Below are positions 24,821-26,167 of a stretch of 64,000 nucleotides of DNA, in pieces. The notes under the pieces were generated by a model. That model saw nothing but the letters and a program-made list of their open reading frames with translations. It was not told the DNA's origin and did no database searches. The stretch spans positions 124,001 to 188,000 of the forward strand of contig NZ_JABWDU010000001.1 in the NCBI RefSeq assembly GCF_013371465.1, read 5' to 3'. Position 1 is the first letter of the stretch. Each line of letters opens with the position of its first letter. The DNA comes from Ensifer oleiphilus. GTDB taxonomy: Bacteria > Pseudomonadota > Alphaproteobacteria > Rhizobiales > Rhizobiaceae. The translations under genes and the position numbers were made by a program.

Positions 24821-26167
24821 ATGTCCGCTGGCGTGATCGCAAAGCCTGCCGTTGCTTGCAGATCCGGGGCACTCCGTGGAGCAGTGCGTATCCCCGGCGA
24901 CAAGTCGATGTCCCATCGCGCCTTGATGCTCGGCGGGCTTGCGGCCGGCCGGACGCGCATTGCCGGCCTGCTCGAGGGCGAGGATATATTCAATACCGCA
25001 AGGGCGATGCAGGCCCTCGGCGCCACAGTGCGCAAGGAAGACGGCACCTGGATCGTCGACGGTGTCGGCAACGGTGCGCTGCTTGAGCCCGAAGCGCCGC
25101 TCGATTTCGGCAATGCCGGTACCGGTTGCGGACTGATTATGGGGCTCGTCGGCGTCTATGATTTTGCGACGACCTTCGTTGGCGATGCATCGCTCGTCAT
25201 GCGGCCGATGGACCGCGTGCTCGATCCCTTGCGCCAGATGGGTGTCCAAGTGGTGTCGGCCCAAGGCGGTCGACTGCCGGTGACGCTTCGCGGGCCGAAG
25301 ACGGCAAACCCGGTGAGCTACCGCTTACCGATGGCCTCGGCCGACGTGAAATCCGCCGTGCTGCTCGCAGGCCTGAACGCGCCCGGCATCACCACGGTGA
25401 TCGAGCCGGTGCCGACCCGCGATCATACGGAAAGAATGCTGCAGGCCTTTGGCGCCAACCTGACAGTCGAGGCTGGCGCTGAAGGCGAGCGCATAGTTCG
25501 GCTCGAAGGGCAGGGCAGGCTGACGGGCCAGGATATCGATATTCCCGGCGATCCGTCGTCTGCCGCGTTTCCACTGGTGGCGGCGCTCGTCGTGCCGGGT
25601 TCCGACGTCACCCTTCTCAATGTGGTGATGAACCCCAACCGGACCGGACTTATCCTGACGCTGAAGGAAATGGGCGCTAGGATCGATGTGCTGAAAACGC
25701 GGCATCAAGGCGGCGAGGACGTGGCCGATCTGCGCGTCCGTTTTTCCGAGCTGAAGGGCATCGCCGTGCCAGAAGACCGCGCGGCCTCGATGATCGACGA
25801 ATATCCGGCGCTGGCCATCGCTGCTGCCTTTGCCGAAGGACGCACGGTGATGAGCGGCCTTGCGGAACTGCGTCTCAAGAAATCCGATCGCCTGGCTGCG
25901 GTTGCCTTCGGTCTCAAGCTCAACGGCGTCGATTGCGAAGAAGGGCCAGCCTCTCTCGTCGTACACGGACGCCCGGACGGCAAGGGTCTCGGCAACGCCG
26001 CGGGCGCCGCCGTCGCCACTCATCTCGACCACCGCATCGCCATGAGCTTCCTCGCCATGGGGCTTGCTACAGAACATCCGGTCGCCGTCGACGACGCGAC
26101 GATGATCGCTGCCAGCTTTCCCGGTTTCATGGAACTGATGGCGGGATTGGGTGCGACGATCGAATGA
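24821..26167 (+). CDS. aroA: AroA/EPSP synthase homologue (class II, CP4-like) with altered active-site residues
   Basis: 448 residues, full length and uninterrupted, clearly homologous to class II 5-enolpyruvylshikimate-3-phosphate synthase of the shikimate pathway. GAGGAAGG precedes the ATG. Kept: 'GDKSMSHR' (Lys28, Ser29, Arg33), Arg128 in 'MRPM', Asp in 'IDEYP', Lys353, Arg357 and 'DHRIAMS'. Changed: the signature Arg104 is Gly ('[12 protein letters not shown]'), Gln175 is Asp ('ASADVKSAV') and the catalytic Glu354 is Lys ('LRLKKSDRL'). Position 100 is Gly, the usual glyphosate-sensitive state. The locus (TIGR02300 gene, aroA, cmk, rpsA) is the normal place for rhizobial aroA. Either the enzyme is inactive or altered and a second aroA exists elsewhere, or these positions hold sequencing errors. 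The stop overlaps the next start (ATGA). Confidence 0.85.

Follow-up and report, generated by a model that had tools for sequence, protein, structure and literature searches.

The analysed DNA, referred to here as the window, is a stretch of 64,000 nucleotides of the Ensifer oleiphilus contig NZ_JABWDU010000001.1, in which a class II aroA gene is followed by an open reading frame for 284 amino acids, cmk and rpsA, and is preceded by a divergently oriented FYDLN_acid gene that serves as a marker of the locus in relatives (Table 1). The aroA stop codon overlaps the start of the 284-residue frame within an ATGA at 26164-26167, and the stop of that frame likewise overlaps the cmk start within an ATGA at 27015. 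The 284-residue product gave no match at E 0.001 in Pfam and NCBIfam searches. The rpsA start at 27820 is our own choice, the listed open reading frame beginning at 27787.

Table 1 Features of the aroA-cmk-rpsA locus in the window
Feature	Position	Strand	Basis
TIGR02300 (FYDLN_acid) gene, divergent upstream neighbour	24142..24543	-	TIGR02300 match
Class II aroA, predicted EPSP synthase pseudoenzyme, 448 aa	24821..26167	+	TIGR01356, CP4 alignment, dN/dS
Codon 104, GGA = Gly (CP4 Arg)	25130..25132	+	codon read and CP4 alignment
Codons 126-127, GTC ATG = Val-Met ahead of Arg128 (CP4 Thr-Lys)	25196..25201	+	CP4 alignment
Codon 175, GAC = Asp (CP4 Gln)	25343..25345	+	codon read and CP4 alignment
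Codon 354, AAA = Lys (CP4 Glu)	25880..25882	+	codon read and CP4 alignment
284-aa open reading frame between aroA and cmk	26164..27018	+	overlaps both neighbours by ATGA
cmk, (d)CMP kinase	27015..27653	+	TIGR00017, 178 bits
rpsA, 30S ribosomal protein S1	27820..29526	+	NF004955, 1072 bits

The product of the aroA gene scores 402 bits against TIGR01356 (cut-off 287) and is a full-length homologue of the class II CP4-type EPSP synthase (PDB 2gg4, 2ggd). A sequence-only reading of this DNA had described a full-length protein in a frame that has stayed open, aligning without gaps to CP4-type enzymes through at least residue 354; the frame is indeed open throughout, with 448 codons before the stop and no frameshift, and the alignment with the CP4 enzyme (2ggd) in fact proceeds without a gap over residues 1-448. 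The same reading had named Gly104, Asp175, Lys354 and Val-Met126-127 as replacements of conserved residues, and all of the codons are as it gave them. Nineteen positions of class II AroA, which we take from work on the E. coli and CP4 enzymes to be the catalytic ones, are all near-invariant across 105 reference sequences, among which 77 named loci were included regardless of their class I status, and the residues at these positions are required for EPSP synthase catalysis. The window protein keeps 16 of the 19, including Lys28, Arg33, Arg128, Arg200, Asp326, Lys353, Arg357, His404 and Arg405, and its S3P/PEP site is no longer intact, being altered by R104G, Q175D and E354K. Five more near-invariant positions are changed (I30M, I226V, V241I, V352L and T431A), so that the protein departs from the consensus at 8 of 154 such positions; taken by itself, it has changes at 3 of 19 catalytic and 5 of 135 other near-invariant positions (P 0.06). 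The comparison with genomes in which no class I AroA was detected is more telling, as none of their 128 class II proteins has lost two or more of the 19 residues, while the window protein has lost three, which places its changes beyond chance. The window AroA is accordingly distinguished from the CP4-type enzymes by the replaced Arg104, Gln175, Glu354 and Thr-Lys126-127, and is predicted to be inactive as an EPSP synthase. A sequencing or assembly error can practically be dismissed as the source of the changes: the same positions are altered elsewhere in the genus and family, the frame contains neither frameshift nor stop, and a look for evidence of such an error in the window found none.

The statement of the sequence-only reading that rhizobial AroA proteins keep Arg, Gln and Glu at positions 104, 175 and 354 turns out to hold for one part of the family. 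Of the 128 class II proteins whose genomes yielded no class I AroA, 120 were recounted and all of them agree with it, but it is not true of the class I-carrying relatives G005, G013, G015 and G011, in which overlapping sets of residues have been lost. The window genome (6.76 Mb, 99.94% complete) itself belongs to the carriers. A PF00275 search returned three proteins, namely MurA and two AroA proteins, that of the window and one of class I type, the latter encoded at C11:806852-808117 on the same contig, about 657 kb from the window gene. This second protein is complete, and its motifs GSKS, GNAGTATR, RKRP, SSQ, QDAIP, KECDR, DHRIAM and KTYP are found in all 52 class I sequences collected, with the variants GNAGTAVR in 4, HKRP in 2, QDAVP in 18 and KTFP in 12. 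Since it is the only EPSP synthase found in the genome with an intact active site, the class I protein presumably supplies the pathway. Both types of AroA are present in all 16 genomes of the window's genus. The sequence-only reading had reasoned that the organism must have either another aroA or a new use for this protein; the former is firmly supported, the latter probably applies as well, and the two are not mutually exclusive.

The class I gene suggests a history of horizontal movement, as the protein is 73% identical to a copy on a Pseudomonas asturiensis plasmid, which is about as close as the Rhizobiaceae copies outside the genus (70-82% identity). On that plasmid, pCC1524 (NZ_CP047266.1), the AroA gene adjoins an anti-sigma/sigma pair and toxin-antitoxin genes, and plasmids of Erwinia persicina and of a further Pseudomonas carry similar copies.

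Two EPSP synthase genes in one genome have been encountered before. Massot et al. 2021 (PMC7840833) describe three Rhizobium strains with such a pair, in which the class II product is hypothesised to be non-functional, since the double carriers are not the most glyphosate tolerant; the parts of that paper available to us mention neither decay of the active site nor an analysis of selection, and neither a half-size form nor a pattern across the family. Pseudomonas putida 4G-1 also resembles the window genome in carrying an extra, unrelated-looking AroA, PpAroA1, beside its native one (PMC3097199), although in that case the work is concerned with the extra copy, and decay of the native copy is not described in the portion of the text consulted.

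Across the family, the two types are nearly mutually exclusive. When 151 family genomes were searched with each AroA protein and a type was counted as present at E below 1e-100, 121 had class II only, 20 class I only, 6 both (G000, the window genome, and G008, G045, G061, G143 and G160) and 4 neither (G020, G103, G124 and G101, the last with a class I fragment at the edge of a contig). Thus 20 of the 26 class I carriers in the survey have no full-length class II gene, which indicates that the gene is dispensable in those genomes. Sixteen of the 20 genomes with class I only have the TIGR02300 gene 0.2-1.04 kb upstream of cmk, a gap that shows the class II gene to be gone from its usual place; in the remaining four (G029, G131, G095 and G098) no TIGR02300 match was found within 1.5 kb of cmk. 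A class II profile run over the flanks of the class I-only genomes detected no remnant except in G113, one of the 16, where a half-size AroA is retained between TIGR02300 and cmk.

Where the class II gene persists beside class I, its active site is damaged in a minority of genomes. Among class II proteins extracted from 31 carriers of class I and 128 non-carriers, losses at one or more of the 19 catalytic positions occur in 10 of the former (G000, G005, G006, G011, G013, G015, G061, G160, G170 and G180) against a single one of the latter (Fisher P 2e-7), that one being G090, a 1.4 Mb genome with E349R; at least two losses occur in 9 of 31 carriers and in no non-carrier. The other 21 carriers keep all 19 positions. 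One further genome, G173, which is 77% complete, yielded no class I AroA and shows 12 catalytic losses, was left out of this comparison; counted as a non-carrier it would give 2 of 129. The 28 non-carriers that belong to the reference set have 0-2 deviations among the 154 near-invariant positions, and the 92 further non-carriers have a median of 1 deviation and a maximum of 37, with one catalytic loss in all. Even strongly diverged non-carriers keep their catalytic site, as G107 and G090 have 34 and 37 near-invariant changes but only 0 and 1 catalytic losses, respectively.

The changes are not confined to the window organism, and a comparison with its closest relatives, as the sequence-only reading had proposed, shows that G000, G005 and G013 are all decayed and that other lineages of the family have decayed separately. 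In the following, ten sequences are treated as decayed, namely the carriers with a loss other than G006, which has G100D only, together with G173. As these species are not independent, the events are better counted as at least five separate decays than as ten: G000/G005/G013 with or without G015, then G011, G061/G180/G173, G170 and G160. In a tree of the flanking genes, G000, G005 and G013 form a clade with supports 99 and 100; this tree counts stretches read on both strands twice, and the support with which it attaches G015 to them is just 60. In the class II gene tree the same three genomes group with support 74 and the group including G015 has support 97, whereas in the class I gene tree the clade is not recovered, the intact G002, G012 and G007 being placed inside the group. 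Residue 104 is a different one in each of the three (Gly, His and Cys), so the constraint on it was probably already gone in their common ancestor.

The decayed proteins show a division between what changes and what stays. First, erosion is deepest in the substrate site. Full-length decayed relatives of the window protein lack 7-14 of the 19 catalytic residues, with 14 gone in both G160 and G180, and deviate at 30 (G015), 42 (G180) and 48 (G160) of the 154 near-invariant positions. Summed over the ten sequences, catalytic cells are changed in 81 of 190 cases and the other near-invariant cells in 163 of 1350 (odds ratio 5.4, P 8e-22). A second test, independent of the list of 19 positions, was based on conservation across both EPSP synthase classes, and in it polar positions common to the two classes are changed in 77 of 240 cases and polar positions conserved in class II only in 70 of 350 (P 0.001), a smaller contrast that is still significant; for Gly, Pro and hydrophobic positions the corresponding figures are 39 of 380 and 58 of 560. 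Next, 64 near-invariant positions are kept in all ten decayed proteins, and these are mostly glycine and hydrophobic residues. Finally, none of the ten genes has an internal stop and all encode 448-452 residues, while neutral evolution throughout would have been expected to produce 8-11 stops along the branch to G015 and 8-10 along that to G180.

It could be argued that the altered proteins are still enzymes with a changed specificity, acting as enolpyruvyl transferases on another acceptor. Several catalytic residues do remain in the window protein, and two replacements recur in the decayed relatives, namely S247L, found in 7 of the 10 decayed sequences (and in G014), and H404P, found in 5 of these ten. 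Neither occurs in any of 120 non-carriers, and such a recurrence is hard to obtain by pure drift. Each of the two would be reachable by a single base change from the likely codons, and mutation bias may have helped them to recur. A new active site should, however, be conserved, and most of the old one has been replaced differently in each relative (Gln175 by Asp, Glu, Arg, Ala or Gly, and Arg104 by Gly, His, Cys, Leu, Ala or Trp), with G160 and G180 having so little of it left; moreover, the window protein retains both Ser247 and His404 and so shares neither recurrent change. A new specificity therefore appears very improbable.

The strength of selection was estimated as dN/dS (ω) with our own branch codon-model script (GY94-type with F3x4) rather than with PAML or HyPhy. 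For the class II genes, outgroups that lack class I have an ω of 0.042, the rest of the genus 0.108 (0.108-0.125) and the decayed branches 0.168, and for the decayed branches ω = 1 is rejected with a 2ΔlnL of 412; over all decayed class II proteins the values range from 0.11 to 0.29. Inside the G000/G005/G013 clade ω is 0.151 (2ΔlnL against 1 = 213), and inside the clade of G061, G180 and G173, all of them decayed (UFBoot 100), it is 0.235 (2ΔlnL 196), so that in these two clades purifying selection has acted after the loss of catalytic residues. G170 gives 0.168, and the highest single terminal value is 0.286 (G173). The G160 branch is saturated, and its ω of 0.112 (2ΔlnL against 1 = 75) is not different from the background of 0.070 (2ΔlnL 2.2). 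On the window branch the dN/dS value, a calculation that the sequence-only reading had suggested, is 0.163 (2ΔlnL against 1 = 48), well below 1, and the window protein has thus not been drifting over most of its own branch. A recent neutral phase on that branch alone is compatible with these figures, as by simple arithmetic a phase covering the last ~6% of it fits with less than one expected stop. Hidden nucleotide constraint was rejected as the sole cause of the low ω, since class II AroA, with 0.64 per codon on the G000 branch, has diverged no less than class I AroA, with 0.35. For the class I genes, ω is 0.032 in the genus and 0.025 in lineages with a decayed class II gene; the three outgroup lineages give 0.105, which limits the low class I value to the genus.

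The genus members not counted as decayed (G001-G004, G006-G010, G012 and G014, a group that includes G006 with its G100D) also have a class II ω that is raised from 0.042 to 0.108, as if relaxation preceded the loss of the active site.

These values also bear on a rival reading of the window gene, namely that it is an ordinary pseudogene at an early stage, made redundant by class I, functional over most of its branch and now drifting. Such a fate has several points in its favour, as the redundancy is real, ω is raised ~2.5-fold even in those members of the genus not counted as decayed, most class I carriers in the survey (20 of 26) are without the full-length gene, and the window branch alone has no significant excess of ω over the genus (2ΔlnL 1.2). 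It is nevertheless difficult to reconcile with the two wholly decayed clades, which still evolve at ω 0.15-0.24, with ten decayed genes that have kept their length without any of the stops expected under neutrality, with the concentration of losses at catalytic positions, and with a half-size derivative that is conserved in 5 species. We regard an ordinary pseudogene as unlikely, though the least unlikely of the alternatives considered.

In G113 the half-size protein between TIGR02300 and cmk has 212 residues and matches AroA residues about 31-239, a range that we take to be the central EPSP synthase domain. The enzyme has two domains, for the names and sizes of which we follow the sections consulted of PMC8983318. 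Half-size proteins of 212-218 residues, mutually 37-71% identical, occur in all five genomes of one related genus (G113 and G185-G188; L388-L392), each of which also has a class I AroA; their catalytic motifs are gone, and that of G188 scores only 26 bits against the Pfam EPSP_synthase model. Their ω is 0.19 (2ΔlnL against 1 = 173), a rough value as the divergence among the five is large, and the closest pair, G186 and G188, likewise gives 0.19 (2ΔlnL 60). In all five the stop of the half-size gene overlaps the cmk start directly as ATGA. In G103 (L211/L265), a half-size AroA is fused in frame to CMK in an open frame of 459 codons; a search of this fragmented genome, which is 92% complete in 770 contigs, gave no class I AroA. 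The fusion is reminiscent of the bifunctional AroA-CMK proteins (NCBIfam NF008816) in joining an AroA-type domain to CMK, but these by name contain full EPSP synthase moieties, whereas G103 fuses the central domain only, without the catalytic residues.

At the g59 and g99 loci, no gene is present between aroA or the half-size aroA and cmk.

A physical tie to the downstream genes would offer another reason for an open frame, in that the protein itself could be irrelevant and the frame be kept only for translational coupling to the genes up to cmk and rpsA. The ATGA overlaps at both ends of the 284-residue frame in the window are in line with this, as are the ATGA that 8 of the 10 decayed genomes have at the end of aroA and the overlap of the half-size gene with cmk in 5 of 5. 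Outside the window, ATGA was scored as sequence at the aroA stop, whether or not its ATG starts a gene. The overlap does not, however, track decay, since G005 and G015 lack it and many intact genomes have it, and a bare leader would be expected to evolve at ω near 1 apart from stops rather than at the observed 0.11-0.29, and to have no need of the glycines and hydrophobic residues that have been kept. Coupling as the sole reason appears quite improbable.

Taken together, the window gene is probably an early pseudoenzyme, the enzymatic activity of which is predicted to be lost while the protein is kept for a non-catalytic role, possibly one tied to cmk-rpsA. Pseudoenzymes in general are known to have a fold that stays under selection after catalytic residues are lost, and the decayed class II AroA proteins resemble them in this respect; the window protein, an EPSP synthase homologue, has lost catalytic residues in the same manner, with the proviso of a possible late neutral phase on its branch. 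As the succession of events we envisage that a class I AroA would relieve the class II protein of catalysis, after which it would lose residues of the substrate site, a loss that is itself observed, while selection has kept the frame and the fold in the decayed lineages, as the dN/dS values, the residue pattern and the absence of stops show. After the arrival of class I, the class II gene would be lost (20 of 26 carriers in the survey are without a full-length copy), stay intact (21 of 31 carriers examined) or erode under selection, and relatives show later stages, from full-length erosion to the central EPSP synthase domain alone and a fusion of that domain with CMK, as well as gene loss. The most likely reason for keeping the protein would be a non-catalytic role tied to the operon, because the aroA stop overlaps the next start and the half-size AroA overlaps the cmk start directly; a folded AroA domain may, for example, assist CMK. 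As far as the sequences allow a judgement, operon coupling and a CMK-linked role would be the best leads to the function.

A more general proposal, which we put forward tentatively and consider possible rather than probable, is that class II AroA in the Rhizobiaceae has a second, non-catalytic function, borne by the central domain and linked to CMK, that becomes exposed once class I takes over catalysis. The catalytic site would then erode repeatedly, partly by the same replacements, and the pseudoenzyme would persist, in some lineages trimmed to a partner of CMK or fused to it.

EPSP synthase is a textbook enzyme and the target of glyphosate, and our search of the open-access literature, with most subscription journals outside its reach, found no description of an EPSP synthase pseudoenzyme; in the open-access literature we likewise found no report of an EPSP synthase pseudogene in the Rhizobiaceae or of an inactive paralogue, no paper on an aroA-CMK-rpsA link or an EPSP synthase-CMK fusion, and nothing usable on the essentiality of aroA in Sinorhizobium meliloti. 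The natural series from intact through eroded full-length proteins to a conserved half-protein, repeated in several lineages with a second gene, offers a clean setting in which to ask what roles an enzyme has beyond catalysis. There is also a practical side, as genomes scored from sequence as class II and glyphosate tolerant can hold a class II protein that is predicted to be dead, and such a protein would fit the tolerance data on double carriers in PMC7840833, as far as these were accessible to us.

Two minor observations concern the AroA records themselves. G083 carries, besides its class II AroA, a third AroA-like kind of protein (G083:C8:930719-932011, L141) that is 41% identical to class I and 33% to class II. 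The record CP051228.1 (L109), titled as a Mesoflavibacter MAG, encodes a class II AroA 56% identical to that of the window and ranks among alphaproteobacterial records, so its title looks wrong.
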